In this document: positions 2,381 to 11,215 of the stretch, in pieces
How the letters are laid out: every line of letters begins with the position of its first letter
How positions within the stretch are numbered: position 1 is the first letter of the stretch
DNA from: a virus
Reading direction: 5' to 3' (one strand)
IMG/VR virus record: IMGVR_UViG_3300020195_000174
Location: 1-22,378 of that record
Length of the DNA stretch: 22,378 nt
The notes under the pieces: model-generated
The model's database searches: none
What the model was told of the DNA's origin: nothing
What the model saw: only the letters and a program-made list of their open reading frames with translations
Program-made: the position numbers and the translations under genes

Positions 2381-2840
2381 GTTCAGTTTCTCCTGGGCGC
2401 TGATGGACGGCTATTCGGCCGGAGCGGTCTACTCCAATGAAGGTGGGTTTCAGGCCTCCGTGGCCGTGTGGTTCGTCACCAACTCGATCAGCCTCCTCAA
2501 CGTGGATTACTGCCATATCTACGAAGAGGTCGGGGATCATTGGGGGATGGTCGGCTTCATGATCGGAAACAATCTGCCGAGGAAGATCGAGCAGACCAAT
2601 CGGTCCCTCGATATGCACGAGATCGCCGTTGACTTCCTCAACGAATGCGATCAGGAATGGGATGGTGACGATAGCGGAGTGACCATCTCCCAGGACGGGG
2701 CGGATAACTGGGACACCGGCGTTCCTGGTGATTTCGTTGTCGTCATCGCAGGTGTCTATTCCATTCTTCGGATTGCACCCACACTCGAGGCAATCGATCA
2801 CGCTGTCGATTTCCAGCAACACAGAGTAGGATATGACTGA
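2370..2840 (+). CDS. Hypothetical protein (156 aa)
   Basis: ATG 2370 follows GTGGAGG and overlaps the previous stop by 11 bases. Longer upstream frames are open but would cover the whole preceding gene. The protein looks globular, with an aromatic N-terminal half (FSFSWALMDGYSAG) and an acidic Trp-containing region (EWDGDDSG ... DNWDTG). The family is not recognised. The stop TGA shares one base with the next ATG, typical of a coupled operon. Confidence 0.7.
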   Translation: MADKFSFSWALMDGYSAGAVYSNEGGFQASVAVWFVTNSISLLNVDYCHIYEEVGDHWGMVGFMIGNNLPRKIEQTNRSLDMHEIAVDFLNECDQEWDGDDSGVTISQDGADNWDTGVPGDFVVVIAGVYSILRIAPTLEAIDHAVDFQQHRVGYD

Positions 2841-3136
2841 TGATCATCGATAAATATCCCGGGATCAAACTGGTATCCCTGAACATCGCCTATGATAATG
2901 ACATGATCAACAGAGGTTGTTCTGAGGAACAATGGCTGCTCTCGCTCGATCCCGTCCTTGGCGCTACAGGCATCGATACTGCCGATCTGGAGATTCTGGA
3001 TCGGTGGTGCCAAACCCTCACCGAAGAACAGGCTGAGACTTTAGCTGCTGGCGAGCACACCGATATGATGAGAGTCAGATCGTTGTGCCCGAAGCCGGAA
3101 CTCTGCGATCTGTTCGACGATATTTTTGGAGCATGA
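2840..3136 (+). CDS. Hypothetical protein (98 aa)
   Basis: ATG 2840 overlaps the preceding TGA by one base. The product is acidic with a helical C-terminal half. No motif or family is recognised, and the four cysteines are not spaced like a zinc site. It is followed one base later by the gene at 3138. The strength of the call rests on continuous coding on one strand and matching codon use. Confidence 0.65.
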   Translation: MIIDKYPGIKLVSLNIAYDNDMINRGCSEEQWLLSLDPVLGATGIDTADLEILDRWCQTLTEEQAETLAAGEHTDMMRVRSLCPKPELCDLFDDIFGA

Positions 3137-3137
3137 A

Positions 3138-3515
3138 ATGATCATCCACGGTTTCCTTATCGACCCTTCGCTCGAGACGATTGAAGTTGTCCGCGTCGAC
3201 AACGCTCTCAATCTCTATGGCTGCTTTCTGATGGGAAAGCATGTTGCTCCTATTTCCTTGATGGAGGAATCTACGGAGTCGATTCCATGGAATTCTCTCG
3301 GTGATCGGATTCACTACTGTGAGCCGAAGCCGGGAGATGTCTCCTTCCAGGTGGCAGGCGTCCTCCAGCCAATCTTTGGAAGGGGGCTGATCCTGGGACA
3401 TGACAGTCAAGGCCTCGGCCTGAACTGCGGTCCCAGGGTCGCTTACATTCAGTGGCTTCACCGAGTCCAGTTCGACAACGGTTTCATGATCCCGTTTGAG
3501 AAGGTGGCATCATGA
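3138..3515 (+). CDS. Hypothetical protein (125 aa)
   Basis: The start ATG 3138 has TTGGAG (3126-3131) six bases upstream. The protein begins with MIIHGFLIDP and shows an alternating beta-like pattern. No family is recognised. It encodes one of the dispersed palindromes (3266-3286) within its coding sequence, read as EESTESIP, a frame different from that used by the copy in the next gene. Its stop forms an ATGA overlap with the gene at 3512. Confidence 0.65.
   Translation: MIIHGFLIDPSLETIEVVRVDNALNLYGCFLMGKHVAPISLMEESTESIPWNSLGDRIHYCEPKPGDVSFQVAGVLQPIFGRGLILGHDSQGLGLNCGPRVAYIQWLHRVQFDNGFMIPFEKVAS
3266..3286. repeat. Dispersed palindrome copy 1 (GGAATC-N9-GATTCC)
   Basis: GGAATC (3266-3271) and GATTCC (3281-3286) are perfect inverted arms around TACGGAGTC. 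The preceding GATGGAG and the following ATGGA are shared with other copies. It lies inside a coding region. Confidence 0.7.
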
Positions 3516-5123: not shown

Positions 5124-5768
5124 ATGGCCACTGACCGAGACAACCGCTCGCCCGAGTATTATGACACTCCCGTTCCCAAGCGCTCACCCACAAGAGCCGA
5201 AGTCACAAACGGAGTCAAACAGGGCCGATTCTACGCTAAAGAGATCAAACTCCTCGATGGAACCACAGTCGTGAAGATTGTGTCATCACAAGGAACATTC
5301 ACACCTGATCTCTACAACGAGTTCTTGGATGAATATGAGAAACATGGAATGATCCGGAAAGCAGCCGCTGCGATCGGCGTCAGTTCTTCGGCGATTAAAA
5401 GAGTGATCATGAAGAATACGGAATTCGCAGAAGCCTGTGTCGAGTGCGAAGAGACCTATCGTGATAGGATGGTCGAGCATATCCAGAATCTCGCGTTCAA
5501 TGGCTCGATCAAGCAGACTTTTGATCGCACGGGAAAGCTGCTCACTGAAGAGATCGTCTACCCGATTCCACTCATCCAGATGGAAGCGCGTCGGGTGGAG
5601 GCAGGATACCGTGACAAGAGAGAAGTGGAGATGAAAGTTTCCGGTGGAGTTCTGATCGCTCCCGCCGAGGTAAAGTCAATCGACGATTGGGAGAAAAGAT
5701 ACAACGATGGCGATACGATCGAAGGCGAGGCAACCGAGATCGAGGATCACGAAGCCCAAGAAGAATGA
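5124..5768 (+). CDS. terS: Terminase small subunit
   Basis: This is the DNA-recognition subunit of the packaging motor, expected to form a ring that binds viral DNA and hands it to the large subunit. Residues about 74-95 (IRKAAAAIGVSSSAIKRVI) form a helix-turn-helix of the terminase small subunit type. They are followed by the characteristic AEACVECEETYRDRMVEHI helix and an acidic tail that may contact the large subunit. At 214 residues it is within the family range. ATG 5124 is chosen over the TTG at 4971 because AGGA lies eight bases upstream and the 5044-5072 promoter would start transcription after any earlier start. It is separated from the large subunit by a 3.8 kb stretch, whereas the two genes usually adjoin. 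Confidence 0.85.
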   Translation: MATDRDNRSPEYYDTPVPKRSPTRAEVTNGVKQGRFYAKEIKLLDGTTVVKIVSSQGTFTPDLYNEFLDEYEKHGMIRKAAAAIGVSSSAIKRVIMKNTEFAEACVECEETYRDRMVEHIQNLAFNGSIKQTFDRTGKLLTEEIVYPIPLIQMEARRVEAGYRDKREVEMKVSGGVLIAPAEVKSIDDWEKRYNDGDTIEGEATEIEDHEAQEE

Positions 5769-5785: not shown

Positions 5786-5817
5786 GAAAAAGCCCGCCTC
5801 CTCTCGCGAGTGGCGGG
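5786..5817 (-). terminator. Terminator of the minus-strand island operon
   Basis: GCCCGCC (5791-5797) pairs with GGCGGGC (5811-5817) around a CTCGCGAG-containing loop. Read on the minus strand it is followed by TTTTT (5790-5786), a typical intrinsic terminator after the gene ending at 5836. On the plus strand it follows terS and is trailed by a weaker ATTTCTTCTT, so it may act in both directions. Confidence 0.75.
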
Positions 5818-5835
5818 CATGATTTCTTCTTGGGC

Positions 5836-6021
5836 TCAGCTCTCCTTTCCGTTCCGGTGGTATTCTGCCCGAACAGTCCGCACGAGGTCCTGCGTCGCCC
5901 TGGACATCTCATTTCCAGGAGCCGCGAACGGAGGACACCGCTTGACTTTCCCTCCGCTTGCCAAGAATTTGGCAATGGCGTCTTGGGACGCCGAGGTCAG
6001 TTTCTTGATAACGAAAGCCAT
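5836..6021 (-). CDS. Hypothetical small basic protein, island gene (61 aa)
   Basis: This is the last gene of the minus-strand operon. ATG 6021 has AGGAG nine bases upstream, directly behind a perfect hairpin. The frame is open to 6192 but that extension reads through the hairpin module. The sequence includes AKFLASGGKVKRCPP, a stretch that resembles short phage proteins of the form FLxxGGKVTxLPP from memory, with no known function. The C-terminus is basic and helical. A strong terminator follows 19 bases after the stop. Confidence 0.65.
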   Translation of the reverse strand: MAFVIKKLTSASQDAIAKFLASGGKVKRCPPFAAPGNEMSRATQDLVRTVRAEYHRNGKES

Positions 6022-6038
6022 AGATCTTCTCCTAAATA

Positions 6039-6060
6039 ATGCCGTCACCATTGACGGCAT
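6039..6060 (-). promoter_or_regulatory. Leader hairpin module copy 1, start-proximal stem
   Basis: ATGCCGTCA (6039-6047) and TGACGGCAT (6052-6060) are perfect inverted arms with a 4-base loop, seven bases upstream of the AGGAG of the gene at 6021. The same element precedes the genes starting at 6660 (copy not adjacent) and 7004, as detailed in the findings. Confidence 0.7.
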
Positions 6061-6075
6061 TACAAGGGAGAGGAG

Positions 6076-6094
6076 GACCGGGCATTGCCCGGTC
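6076..6094 (-). promoter_or_regulatory. Leader hairpin module copy 1, distal GC-rich stem
   Basis: GACCGGGC (6076-6083) pairs with GCCCGGTC (6087-6094) across loop ATT. No T tract follows on the minus strand, so it may be a processing or stability element rather than an efficient terminator. Confidence 0.6.
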
Positions 6095-6124
6095 ATTCTC
6101 CAGTGGCTTGGCTTCATCAGTGTG

Positions 6125-6161
6125 GGGAGAGCCACTCCCGCACAGACAGGCTTGCGCCTGT
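6125..6161 (-). other. Two further hairpins in the intergenic transcript
   Basis: GGGAG/CTCCC arms around 6126-6139 and a perfect ACAGGC (6146-6151)/GCCTGT (6156-6161) stem. On the minus strand the loop of the second is GCAA, a GNRA tetraloop. They lie just after the stop of the gene at 6170. Confidence 0.5.
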
Positions 6162-6169
6162 TTCGCCAG

Positions 6170-6397
6170 TTATTCGCCAAATCCCTCGGCAATGTCAGCC
6201 TCGCTGACGTTCAGTTCATCGCACATGGTTTTGGTCAGCTCGAGCAGCCGATTGGCCGATCCTGCATGGCTCCAGTTGACATGGGCTTTCTCGCCGCCAG
6301 CCATGGCTTCGAGTTTTTCGAAAGCCAATTCAAAGCGGATACGGGCTTCAGCCATTGCGGCTGAATATACGTCGTGGCTTGCAGGTTTCATGGTCAT
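6170..6397 (-). CDS. Hypothetical protein, island gene (75 aa)
   Basis: ATG 6397 forms an ATGA overlap with the stop of the upstream gene (6394-6396), so it is translationally coupled. An in-frame ATG at 6391 is better spaced from the GGAG at 6401-6398 and is an alternative start. The protein is helical, with a C-terminal LTKTMCDELNVSEADIAEGFG segment that looks like a small helical bundle or HTH-like unit. The family is not recognised. The start region (about 6392-6408) is duplicated almost exactly at 6091-6107 in the next intergenic region. Confidence 0.65.
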   Translation of the reverse strand: MTMKPASHDVYSAAMAEARIRFELAFEKLEAMAGGEKAHVNWSHAGSANRLLELTKTMCDELNVSEADIAEGFGE

Positions 6398-6660
6398 TCT
6401 CCAGTCGCTCGGGCCGCGTCGCCATTCTCACCCGGCCACAGGACCTCATGCCATGCGATGACAGGGTAGCCCTGGATGCCCGACATGGAGAGTGCCATAC
6501 GGAACTCTCCAATGCTGAGAGGCAACTGGTAGCTCTGGTGGATGAGGTCCGTCAGCTTATTGTATCGGTCGTCGCCGATGTAGTCCTTGATATCCTGGAT
6601 TGCCTGAGCCAGCTTCGCGTCCGGCGCAAGATTGGGATAGCTGATGTCATAATGACTCAT
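6394..6660 (-). CDS. Hypothetical protein, island gene (88 aa)
   Basis: ATG 6660 has GGAG nine bases upstream, behind the leader hairpin at 6677-6698. The product is a mixed helical protein of 88 residues (MSHYDISYPNLAPDAK at the N-terminus, an aromatic GYPVIAWHEVLWPG patch near the end). No family is recognised. Unlike its neighbours it has no internal repeats. It is coupled to the downstream gene by an ATGA overlap. Confidence 0.7.
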   Translation of the reverse strand: MSHYDISYPNLAPDAKLAQAIQDIKDYIGDDRYNKLTDLIHQSYQLPLSIGEFRMALSMSGIQGYPVIAWHEVLWPGENGDAARATGE

Positions 6661-6676
6661 GATCTTCTCCTGAATA

Positions 6677-6698
6677 ATGCCGTCACCATTGACGGCAT
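6677..6698 (-). promoter_or_regulatory. Leader hairpin module copy 2, start-proximal stem
   Basis: ATGCCGTCA (6677-6685) and TGACGGCAT (6690-6698) form a perfect stem with loop CCAT, followed on the minus strand by TATTCAGGAGAAGATC and ATG 6660. Its layout is the same as copy 1. Confidence 0.7.
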
Positions 6699-6712
6699 AA
6701 CAAGGGGGAAGT

Positions 6713-6735
6713 GGGACCGGGGATTGCCCGGTCCC
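6713..6735 (-). promoter_or_regulatory. Leader hairpin module copy 2, distal GC-rich stem
   Basis: GGGACCGGG (6713-6721) pairs with CCCGGTCCC (6727-6735), a 9-bp stem five bases after the stop of the gene at 6741. It has the same position in the module as the stems at 6076 and 7061 but a different stem sequence. Confidence 0.6.
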
Positions 6736-6740
6736 AGGTT

Positions 6741-7004
6741 TCAGGTGGAAGCCGCTTCGGCCTTCCAGGCGGCATGAGCAGCGACTTGGGAAACCCAAGC
6801 CGATTCCCACAAGGCATGAGCAGCCGCTTCGGCTTTCGAAGCCTTTTCCCAGGAGGCACGAGCAGCCGCTTCGGCTTCGCCCTCTGGGGTCGCCTCCCAG
6901 GAGGCACGAGCAGCCGCTTCGGCTTTTGAAGCCGCTTCCCAGGAGGCATGAGCAGCCGAGTCGGCTTCTGCCGCCGCTTCCCAGGCTTGCCTTGAATTGG
7001 TCAT
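6741..7004 (-). CDS. Alanine/tryptophan repeat protein, island gene (87 aa)
   Basis: ATG 7004 has AGGAG about seven bases upstream, behind hairpin module copy 3. Almost the whole protein consists of about six units of roughly 14 residues with the pattern [HR]-A-x-W-E-x-A-x-[KE]-A-[ED]-x-A-A (for example RASWEKASKAEAAA). One unit is lengthened to 16. It should form a long amphipathic helix with Trp at a fixed phase. Proteins with repeating Ala/Trp/Arg units occur in several phages without a known function. The DNA repeats (about 42-48 bases) are still similar, so the expansion may be recent. The plus-strand ORF over it is a shadow. Confidence 0.65.
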   Translation of the reverse strand: MTNSRQAWEAAAEADSAAHASWEAASKAEAAARASWEATPEGEAEAAARASWEKASKAEAAAHALWESAWVSQVAAHAAWKAEAAST

Positions 7005-7021
7005 AGTTCTTCTCCTAAATA

Positions 7022-7043
7022 ATGCCGCCACCATTGGCGGCAT
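7022..7043 (-). promoter_or_regulatory. Leader hairpin module copy 3, start-proximal stem with compensatory change
   Basis: ATGCCGCCA (7022-7030) and TGGCGGCAT (7035-7043) form a perfect stem with loop CCAT. Compared with copies 1 and 2, a T-A pair has become C-G on both arms, so pairing is preserved. It lies seven bases upstream of the AGGAG of the gene at 7004. Confidence 0.75.
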
Positions 7044-7060
7044 AACAAGGGGGAAGTGAA

Positions 7061-7081
7061 CCGGGTGGCATTGCCACCCGG
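7061..7081 (-). promoter_or_regulatory. Leader hairpin module copy 3, distal GC-rich stem
   Basis: CCGGGTGGC (7061-7069) pairs with GCCACCCGG (7073-7081) around ATT. It keeps the loop of copy 1 with a different stem and lies ten bases after the stop of the gene at 7091. Confidence 0.65.
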
Positions 7082-7090
7082 CCCTTGATT

Positions 7091-7570
7091 TTATGCTGCG
7101 ACTTCCACTTTGGGCTTGCCAGCTTCCCATGCCGCCACTTCGGCCTCGTACTCCTGGTCGGTGCAGTCACACATCACGATCAGCTTGTTCTTCTCCCAAA
7201 AGGTAAGGTCCAGGTAGCACAAGCCCGGCGTGGTCTTGGCCTGTTGCATGGTCATGCCGACCCTGTAGAGGTGCCACCGCTTGATGCCCAGACCCATTCC
7301 GGGGTGAACGCCCATGCTGGCAATGCGGCGCAACATCTTGCGCTGAGGCTTGGCCTTCTGGGTGAAGCCGCCACACGCCTTGATGGTCGCCGCCATGCGC
7401 TGTTGGAACAGCGCGGCTGCAACTTCGGCGGCTGTAGGGCCAGCCGTTTCGGGCGGGGCCGCTTCGGGCGGGGCCGCTTCGGGCATGGCCGCTTCGGGCA
7501 TGGCCGCTTCGGGCGGGGCCGTTTTGCCGTTGCGAGTGGCGAAGCGGTTCGTTGCGTTGAGTTGTGCCAT
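7091..7570 (-). CDS. Hypothetical protein with N-terminal PEAAP repeats, island gene (159 aa)
   Basis: ATG 7570 follows AGGAAG. Residues about 17-41 are five pentapeptides (PEAAM/PEAAP/PETAG) encoded by 15-bp DNA repeats, likely an extended flexible linker. The C-terminal about 100 residues look like a folded domain with cysteines and aromatic residues (CGGFTQKAKPQRKM, HLYRVGMTMQQAK, CYLDLTFWEKNKL, EYEAEVAAWEAGKPK). I cannot name its family. It is the largest island protein and the second gene of the operon. Confidence 0.7.
   Translation of the reverse strand: MAQLNATNRFATRNGKTAPPEAAMPEAAMPEAAPPEAAPPETAGPTAAEVAAALFQQRMAATIKACGGFTQKAKPQRKMLRRIASMGVHPGMGLGIKRWHLYRVGMTMQQAKTTPGLCYLDLTFWEKNKLIVMCDCTDQEYEAEVAAWEAGKPKVEVAA
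7448..7522. repeat. Five tandem 15-bp units inside the gene at 7091
   Basis: The unit is TTCGGGCGGGGCCGC, with ATG instead of GGG in two central units. It encodes the PEAA[PM] pentapeptides on the minus strand. Confidence 0.8.
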
Positions 7571-7606
7571 AGTTTTACTTCCTACAGTTAGCAGGCTTGA
7601 TTACCT

Positions 7607-7642
7607 GCCCTATGCACCCCGCCATGATGAGGTGCATAGGGC
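7607..7642 (-). terminator. Long perfect hairpin between island genes
   Basis: GCCCTATGCACC (7607-7618) pairs with all 12 bases of GGTGCATAGGGC (7631-7642) around a 12-base loop. It lies between the stop of the gene at 7690 and the start of the gene at 7570. There is no T tract, so it may slow or process the transcript rather than end it. Confidence 0.55.
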
Positions 7643-7689
7643 AAGCAACTGACCGCCACATGCGATCAGTGCTGGCCTTGGCCTTGGCC

Positions 7690-7897: not shown

Positions 7898-7926
7898 CTT
7901 ATAGCACCAGGGCAAAAGCCAAGTAA
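7898..7926 (-). promoter_or_regulatory. Candidate promoter of the minus-strand island operon
   Basis: On the minus strand TATAAG (7903-7898) has TTACTT (7926-7921) 17 bases upstream. The -10 is good and the -35 weak. It sits correctly for the gene starting at 7863. Confidence 0.45.
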
Positions 7927-8025
7927 AGCCCTATTTTGACAAAAGTCCAAATAAACGTCAGTCCCACGTAGACCCATTGGAGTCAGTCCTACAGACCCGG
8001 AGTCCGTTTGGTCCCCATAGGTGCC

Positions 8026-8079
8026 CGCTACAGCCGCTACAGCCGCTACAGCCGCTACAGCCGCTACAGCCGCTACAGC
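8026..8079. repeat. Six tandem copies of a 9-bp unit
   Basis: The unit is CGCTACAGC, repeated six times without error. It lies in the 370-base gene-free interval 7864-8233 between the divergent genes, which otherwise shows two imperfect GTCAGTCC...AGACCC units (about 7957-8000). Confidence 0.9.
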
Positions 8080-8080
8080 C

Positions 8081-8140
8081 ATGCCAGGCCATGCCAGGCC
8101 ATGCCAGGCCATGCCAGGCCATGCCAGGCCATGCCAGGCC
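8081..8140. repeat. Six tandem copies of a 10-bp unit
   Basis: The unit is ATGCCAGGCC, repeated six times without error, directly adjoining the 9-bp array. A 10-bp period equals about one helical turn, so identical sequence would face the same side of the DNA. Confidence 0.9.
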
Positions 8141-8233
8141 CATTGGCTAGGTGTTGCTCACAATTAGCTTGCCATCTGTTTTTTTGCCATGGTAGTGTAG
8201 CGGTGGGCAATGCTGCCCAAAGGAGTTAACAAC

Positions 8234-8557
8234 ATGCCAAAACTTGTTACGCTACCCATACAAGCACCAACCACGCTACCAACCATTTTTGCCCACGTGG
8301 CCACAGCCGCAGCCGCCCTTAACTGGCAAGGGCCGGCCCTTTGCCATGCCTTGCATGGCGTGGTAAAAATGCGCGCTGAGCTTGCGCCGGGCTTGGTCCC
8401 AGCGGCACAAGCAAGGGCCATAAATGGTACACTGTATGCGCAAGCCATTGCTTTACAGCGCGCGCAAGAGCAAGCGGCCGCAGTCACTGCGGCCCTAAAC
8501 AGCGCTTTGCTGGCTCTGGCGCTGTTGTTGCCACAGGCCACAGACTACAGGCCATAG
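8234..8557 (+). CDS. Hypothetical alanine-rich protein, island gene (107 aa)
   Basis: ATG 8234 has AAAGGAG eight bases upstream, the clearest ribosome binding site in the island. It is followed by a helical Ala/Leu-rich protein with a weakly hydrophobic C-terminal stretch (ALNSALLALALLLPQA). That stretch could be a membrane segment but is short. Codon use (CAA, GCC, CTA, GTA, ACC frequent) is unlike the terminase and capsid genes. The stop codon lies inside a 7-bp repeat array. A hairpin GGGCA/TGCCC (8205-8219) lies in its leader. The family is not recognised. The opposite-strand ORF has no comparable start signal. Confidence 0.6.
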   Translation: MPKLVTLPIQAPTTLPTIFAHVATAAAALNWQGPALCHALHGVVKMRAELAPGLVPAAQARAINGTLYAQAIALQRAQEQAAAVTAALNSALLALALLLPQATDYRP

Positions 8558-8604
8558 GCCGTAGGCCATAGGCCGTAGGCCATAGGCCATAGGTTATAGG
8601 CCAC
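8549..8604. repeat. Eight 7-bp units AGGCC[AG]T
   Basis: Units of AGGCCAT and AGGCCGT alternate, with one AGGTTAT variant. The array begins inside the last codons of the gene at 8234 and supplies its stop TAG. It opens the gene-free interval 8558-8975. Confidence 0.85.
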
Positions 8605-8644
8605 CCCATAGGGTGGCCCTTGCCACCCCATAGGGTGGCCCTTG
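8601..8644. repeat. Tandem duplication of a 22-bp hairpin unit
   Basis: Two identical 22-bp units (8601-8622 and 8623-8644) each contain the perfect hairpin CCACCC-CATA-GGGTGG. They follow the gene at 8234 and might end its transcript, but no T tract is present. Confidence 0.85.
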
Positions 8645-8766
8645 CCATGCCTTAACCCCACCCTAGGCGCGGCCGGTGGTAGAATGTTACCCCAAGGTGG
8701 TCCCGTGCCCATCGCTCTCGCCCACCTCCAAATCAAAATAGTGCAATCACAAACACTAGAATAAGA

Positions 8767-8834
8767 ATCGAGGATGAAATCGAGGATGAAATCGAGGATG
8801 AAATCGAGGATGAAATCGAGGATGAAATCGAGGA
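8767..8834. repeat. Five tandem 12-bp units ATCGAGGATGAA plus a partial unit
   Basis: Five perfect copies (8767-8826) are followed by ATCGAGGA. In one plus frame the array reads (I-E-D-E)n and stops at TAG 8848-8850, but no start codon or ribosome binding site precedes it. I see no gene in 8558-8975. Confidence 0.9.
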
Positions 8835-8898
8835 GATGGACTCCCAATAGGGTGCAAAAGACAACTGACGAGCCCAAGAGGACCAGGAAACTCACCCA

Positions 8899-11193: not shown

Positions 11194-11215
11194 GGAAATC
11201 TACTGCGTCGATTCC
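11194..11215. repeat. Dispersed palindrome copy 6 in the portal leader
   Basis: GGAAATC-TACTGCGTC-GATTCC has the same core as copy 2, with an extra A in the left arm. GATTCCATGGA is shared with copy 1. It lies 12 bases before the portal ATG. Confidence 0.65.

Follow-up and report, generated by a model that had tools for sequence, protein, structure and literature searches.

Two-hairpin modules and a predicted type II hammerhead ribozyme between the small genes of a phage operon

Genome region and operon

The window, i.e., the whole stretch of DNA analyzed, is a 22.4-kb IMG/VR virus record. Its terminase large subunit is at most 58% identical to those of named phages, with 57% identity to that of Pseudomonas phage M6, a member of Yuavirus. 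In phage M6, the two terminase genes abut; in the window, an island of small genes on the minus strand lies between them. When compared with annotated phages, the island matched nothing at the DNA level, and two of its genes matched nothing at the protein level.

The island reads as a minus-strand operon, framed by a promoter-like site (TTTACT-18-TATAAG, positions 7898 to 7927; a consensus match only) and, at its end, by a putative terminator of canonical form (5787 to 5818), the hairpin GCCCGCC...GGCGGGC with TTTTT after it. Similar terminator hairpins are present in G001, a near relative of the window (terminase 96% identical), and in L061 (terminase 66% identical). The first gene (7091 to 7570) encodes a 159-amino-acid protein of a conserved family with an AKPQRKMLR core, a family absent from the bacterial genomes searched. 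Its leader contains a perfect hairpin of 19 bp (7602 to 7647); three relatives share the fold but have other arms. The first gene is followed by a repetitive small gene (6741 to 7004), a small gene with a product starting MSHYDISY (6394 to 6660) that has an orthologue with the same leader in G001, a gene for 75 amino acids (6170 to 6397), and the last small gene (5836 to 6021). The product of the last gene matched the SutA RNA-polymerase-binding domain below the threshold (19.2 bits; cut-off, 29.3), and short proteins related to it were found in L026 and L028.

Several repeats were observed in the window. Tandem-repeat arrays with units of 9, 10, 12, and 14 nt adjoin the island (8016 to 8147, 8530 to 8606, and 8754 to 8846), and G001 and L061 have other simple repeats on the same side. 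An inverted repeat, GGAATC(GACGCAGTA)GATTCC, is dispersed in both orientations at positions 3266, 3533, 9214, 9302, and 11106, with a half copy at 11197; several copies are near gene starts, and the repeat is present in G001 too. In addition, a 49-nt repeat (1047 to 1095 and 1780 to 1828; 84% identical) lies upstream of two genes and contains the promoter-like sequence TTGTCA-17-TACCCT.

The two-hairpin module

Three spacers of the operon share the same order of elements on the minus strand: a stop codon, a GC-rich hairpin (hairpin 1), a perfect hairpin with an ATGG loop (hairpin 2), AGGAG, and an ATG. The sequence-only reading, an earlier inspection of this DNA that had described this arrangement, had placed all three spacers correctly. 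In each copy, the linker between the hairpins is pyrimidine-rich and ends in CCCTTGTWATG, and every module copy is intercistronic and on the sense strand. Module W3 (7002 to 7081) comprises hairpin 1 (7061 to 7081), the extended hairpin 2 described below (7008 to 7057), AGGAG, and the ATG of gene 6741-7004. Module W2 (6658 to 6735), which is orthologous to positions 1246 to 1320 of locus L015 in G001, has hairpin 1 at 6713 to 6735 and the extended hairpin 2 at 6663 to 6712, followed by AGGAG and the ATG of gene 6394-6660. Module W1 (6019 to 6094) has the corresponding elements at 6076 to 6094 and 6025 to 6074, with AGGAG at 6029 to 6033 and the ATG of gene 5836-6021. The distance of hairpin 1 from the stop codon is 5 nt in W2 and 9 nt in W3.

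The GC-rich stems are GACCGGGC-AAT-GCCCGGTC in W1 (6076 to 6094), GGGACCGGG-CAATC-CCCGGTCCC in W2 (6713 to 6735), and CCGGGTGGC-AAT-GCCACCCGG in W3 (7061 to 7081). It had been proposed that these stems differ in sequence in all three copies. W1 and W2 share a CCGGG core in hairpin 1, however, so these two stems are not wholly different. The upper stem of hairpin 2 is ATGCCGTCA-ATGG-TGACGGCAT in both W1 (6039 to 6060) and W2 (6677 to 6698) and ATGCCGCCA-ATGG-TGGCGGCAT in W3 (7022 to 7043). While the ATGG-loop stem is as given in the sequence-only reading, the hairpin is longer than had been thought: RNA folding extends it by a further 6 to 8 bp, and its lower stem takes in the Shine-Dalgarno sequence. 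In the minimum-energy and centroid structures of every copy, the ATGG hairpin is followed by a 3x3 internal loop and then by the lower stem, in which an upstream CUUCUCC tract or its variant (CUUCYCC) pairs with the Shine-Dalgarno sequence GGAGAAG. The lower stem has a C.A mismatch in two of the window copies.

The three window copies fold with z scores of -8.1, -5.9, and -6.5 relative to dinucleotide shuffles, none of the 200 shuffles being as stable; across seven module copies, minimum free energy z scores range from -5.7 to -8.1. Neither Rfam nor the literature searched had a match to the module. Of the Rfam matches, only the hammerhead described below reached its gathering score; low-threshold matches to mir-2068, PK-repBA, snaR-A, and isrK fell short of theirs and resemble random hits on strong hairpins. 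The integron attC cores GTTRRRY and RYYYAAC were not found in the three modules.

A stable GC-rich hairpin directly past a stop codon could be a partial terminator or attenuator, with hairpin 1 slowing the polymerase and grading expression along the operon. However, TTTT is absent from all three modules, and the end of the operon carries a canonical hairpin with TTTTT. We consider such a role very improbable.

Conservation and covariation among relatives

Module patterns were scanned for in 2.9 million viral contigs and in 80 terminase relatives. The copies found belong to two close phages (the window and G001), one diverged relative (L061), and one unrelated phage record (G002). G001 has three copies in the homologous operon. 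The diverged copy of L061, found among the terminase relatives, has a new GC stem (GGGACAGGCG-GAAA-CGCCTGTCCC), an upper stem with a U.G pair, and a lower stem consisting of UUUCUCC/GGAGAAA. G002 has an identical 22-nt upper hairpin with a GC-rich hairpin ahead of it, and its lower stem, CGACUUCAU/AUGGAGUCG (CGACUUC/GGAGUCG), fits its own Shine-Dalgarno sequence, GGAGUCGG, which recurs ahead of other genes in that phage; no evident gene follows the G002 copy. Relaxed viral patterns also returned L115 and L127 to L133, in which the module is not formed and which look like chance matches. A genome scan for the hairpin gave 29 matches, nearly all of which look coding and are without the lower stem. 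One match lies directly upstream of a small gene on a contig of Methylovulum psychrotolerans that carries plasmid-like genes (L170, 240 to 330, plus strand); it is an intergenic hairpin that shares the inner stem and AUGG loop of the module and includes GGAG in its lower stem. We took it as a look-alike because 151 genomes of its order gave one further, partial match.

In the alignment of eight module copies, seven pairs are changed on both sides, a count reached by none of 500 shuffles, and slid controls gave 0 to 1. Without G002, there are three such pairs, and 41 of 500 shuffles reach that number; covariation without G002 is thus modest. The pair count on a further alignment, A3, was set aside, as that alignment includes matches on the reverse strand. 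A G.U pair (columns 12 and 39) is present in all copies except G002 and, together with the U.G pair of L061, points to RNA rather than to a DNA palindrome. The loop CAAUGG is invariant in all eight copies while the stems vary.

Hairpins in this position also occur where the sequence is different. L026 and eight plus-strand relatives, in which the first gene is on the plus strand, have two hairpins after the stop codon that are unlike the module in sequence. The two leaders of L026 fold below shuffles (z scores, -6.0 and -3.9); among four plus-strand relatives analyzed over 130 nt, two are ~2 standard deviations below shuffles and two are not below them.

The sequence-only reading had taken covariation within the window as an indication of selection for RNA structure. 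The relatives bear this out, whereas the single compensated stem 2 pair of the window is weak on its own, and in one copy of G001 that very pair of the upper stem is a C.A mismatch. Selection on the RNA structure of the module is supported, as far as sequence comparison goes, by the compensation in the Shine-Dalgarno arm, the conserved G-U pairs, and the same order of hairpins in diverged sequence.

The same features bear on a reading in which the palindrome is DNA, namely, a dimeric repressor site within a promoter with -35 TTGTTA and -10 CATTAT. Weak hexamers do lie on either side of it in W1 and W2 at a spacing of 18, with 8 of 12 matches. However, transcription would then start at or after the Shine-Dalgarno sequence, the best hexamer pair of W3 is elsewhere, and the G.U pairs and the covariation of the Shine-Dalgarno arm are features of RNA. 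An operator or promoter at these sites is therefore extremely unlikely.

The lower stem could also make the module a pure translational switch, in which hairpin 2 hides the Shine-Dalgarno sequence, an opening or locking protein or RNA binds the CAAUGG loop, and no cleavage takes place. In L061 and G002, changes in the Shine-Dalgarno arm are matched by changes in its partner, and the constancy of the loop amid varying stems also fits this idea. However, the computed probability of the Shine-Dalgarno sequence being unpaired is 0.23 to 0.45, and the median for control genes is 0.33, so that the predicted occlusion appears ordinary for these phages and no stronger than in their ordinary genes; occlusion as the sole function is unsupported against these controls. 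Nor is Shine-Dalgarno pairing universal, because the two leaders of L026 and the leader of the first operon gene leave the sequence largely free. Such a switch would also leave hairpin 1 without a role, and we regard it as unlikely.

A predicted type II hammerhead ribozyme

The spacer that contains W1 also contains an element predicted to be a self-cutting type II hammerhead ribozyme (6100 to 6169, minus strand, including a pseudoknot tail). It matches Rfam family RF02276 at positions 6106 to 6168 with a score of 38 bits, i.e., 1 bit above the gathering score of 37. The core is intact, with CUGAUGA, CGAAAC, and GUC/U (the slash indicating the cut) all present, and the predicted cut (GUC/UGUG) is between 6145 and 6144, which places it downstream of the preceding gene and ahead of the W1 module. 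Neither the ribozyme nor the pairing of hairpin 2 with the Shine-Dalgarno sequence had been noticed in the sequence-only reading.

Hammerheads also stand in leader positions in other records. G057 (3300035181_001319; terminase 53% identical) has three type II hammerheads before consecutive small genes (L141, 8250 to 9046, minus strand), and the gene after the first of these is homologous to gene 6170-6397 of the window. In each G057 hammerhead, the pseudoknot strand AGCCACU runs into the Shine-Dalgarno sequence GGAG, 7 nt before the ATG. When the window hammerhead was aligned with the three G057 copies, stems I and III were loop-closed, stem II was open, and 99% of the cells were paired; compensatory changes are present in stems II and III. 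A pseudoknot of 7 bp, between AGUGGCU in loop I and AGCCACU in the tail just past stem II, is formed in all four copies. Such a pairing between loop I and the tail has been described for the majority of type II hammerheads (Perreault et al. 2011, PMC3088659). In G082 (3300032093_000121), a type II hammerhead with a different loop/tail pairing precedes a gene start (L142, about 5501 to 5566, minus strand), and no further hammerhead record was found among the 88 searched. An unannotated region of Streptomyces phage Salutena (MT708548, 40900 to 40963) is 75% identical to a G057 hammerhead leader (E = 0.01).

Hammerheads that flank single phage or prophage genes have been known since 2011, when they were interpreted as mRNA punctuation or message processing (PMC3088659). 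The arrangement of a hammerhead before a gene is therefore a new instance of a known pattern.

Cassette behavior

In the alignment of the window with G001, the window has one extra unit, consisting of gene 6741-7004 and one module, and the break is inside the module. The idea that each gene comes as a cassette with its own leader, already put forward from the window itself, is supported by this one clean difference, as G001 is without exactly one gene and one module. Other rearrangements were also seen: (i) on the minus strand of L061, the right half of a module is fused to the operon terminator hairpin (CTCGCGAGAGGAGGCGGCATTATTTAGGAG), upstream of ATGATGTTCATTGC; (ii) the early-region gene of the window at 2840 to 3133 is missing at that position in G001, and a homologue with 72% DNA identity is found in the G001 island behind a module (L015, 1953 to 2258); and (iii) two copies of a 14-nt direct repeat, ACTGGAGAATGACC, flank the unit formed by gene 6170-6397 and the ribozyme. 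The left copy (6392 to 6405, minus strand) overlaps the stop of gene 6394-6660 and supplies the Shine-Dalgarno sequence of the next gene, and the right copy (6091 to 6104, minus strand) overlaps both the tail of the hammerhead and the beginning of hairpin 1. The gene and its ribozyme look like an insertion that separated the W1 module from the stop of gene 6394-6660, and without this insert the arrangement would resemble that of G001.

All of these junctions could mean that modules are kept mainly as identical intergenic sequences for cassette swapping, i.e., as recombination linkers whose RNA structure is secondary, a role like that put forward for the stem-loop cassettes of T4-type phages. 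However, selection for homology alone leaves the compensatory changes and G.U pairs unexplained, and the relatives lose sequence identity yet keep the hairpins. We find it distinctly unlikely that linking is the main role of the modules.

Modules as mRNA punctuation

Our best explanation, which we give an even chance of being correct, is that the modules are RNA punctuation and leader elements of a polycistronic phage mRNA, which separate messages, gate translation, and are carried as cassettes. Hairpin 1, just past the stop codon, would cap the upstream message at its 3' end, and hairpin 2 would be the 5' leader stem, base paired to the Shine-Dalgarno sequence of the next gene. A host RNase may cut in or between the hairpins, and near W1 the hammerhead may cut too. 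This would yield single-gene mRNAs with a hairpin at each end and free or expose the Shine-Dalgarno sequence, while the modules would mark the joints at which gene cassettes are gained or lost. A cut type II hammerhead would likewise leave its stem III hairpin on the upstream 3' end and stem I on the downstream 5' end near the Shine-Dalgarno sequence. The two-hairpin module has the same predicted geometry as the cut hammerhead, with no catalytic core; it may rely on a host nuclease or act by protection alone.

This punctuation reading is based on the intercistronic sense position, the conservation of structure, the hammerhead and the G057 leaders, the cassette difference to G001, and the frame of promoter-like site and terminator. 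Counted against it were the ordinary occlusion, the nonuniversal Shine-Dalgarno pairing, the C.A mismatches, the modest covariation without G002, the hammerhead score close to the cut-off, and the weak or null folding in plus-strand relatives. Action at the RNA level and cassette behavior are supported; transcription, cleavage, stability, and translational effects are inferred.

A more tentative extension, doubtful as it stands, is that two-hairpin modules and hammerheads are interchangeable punctuation cassettes. Each gene would then have its own separating leader, self-cut or host-cut, and both types would end at the Shine-Dalgarno sequence, coupling processing and translation. A predicted self-cutting leader and a noncatalytic leader are side by side in this one operon. 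If correct, the proposal would provide a simple system for studying how phages divide polycistronic messages and swap small accessory genes while keeping their expression. Phage hammerheads, described in 2011, have had no proven function since then; the proposal would suggest one for them by setting the pseudoknot strand directly against the Shine-Dalgarno sequence.

Comparison with known systems

The start-associated sequences of Cluster K mycobacteriophages (SAS and extended SAS [ESAS]) consist of a 13-bp sequence, GGGATAGGAGCCC, located upstream of gene starts with an inverted repeat; they are common to genes of different families, and a role in translation initiation has been suspected (PMC3203893). 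All three modules similarly have an inverted repeat just upstream of the start codon. However, the module sequence is unrelated, its inverted repeat includes the Shine-Dalgarno sequence, a GC-rich hairpin lies ahead of it, and its copies were found within a single operon only. The SAS 13-mer gave no match at 0 to 1 mismatch and three matches at 2 to 3 mismatches (chance mean, 5.1), none of them in the sense orientation at these starts.

RNase III sites separate the early genes of T7 and precede the N gene of lambda. The module resembles these sites in having an interrupted intercistronic stem of ~20 bp that adjoins the Shine-Dalgarno sequence, and its modeled stem length and internal loop are compatible with an RNase III processing site. 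In contrast to the T7 and lambda sites, the module has two separate hairpins and an unrelated sequence. The PeSL cassettes of T4-type phages, said to have been described by Arbiol et al. in 2010, are reportedly repeated intergenic stem-loops tied to modular gene shuffling and are said to carry an early promoter. The modules share the repeated intergenic stem-loops and the modular gene shuffling with PeSLs but are without a promoter-like site (best match, 8 of 12).

The window and G057 ribozymes share the fold of type II hammerheads, including the pseudoknot, and their location between or before small genes (PMC3088659; RF02276). They differ from known members in that, in the window, ribozyme and module occupy one spacer and, in G057, the pseudoknot strands abut the Shine-Dalgarno sequence. 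CUGAUGA and CGAAA are absent from all three modules, and we rejected the idea that the module is a hammerhead derivative, as these core nucleotides are missing. Judged by its sequence features, the two-hairpin module is a real, selected RNA element with cassette behavior and a variant of the known start-associated and gene-punctuating elements of phages.
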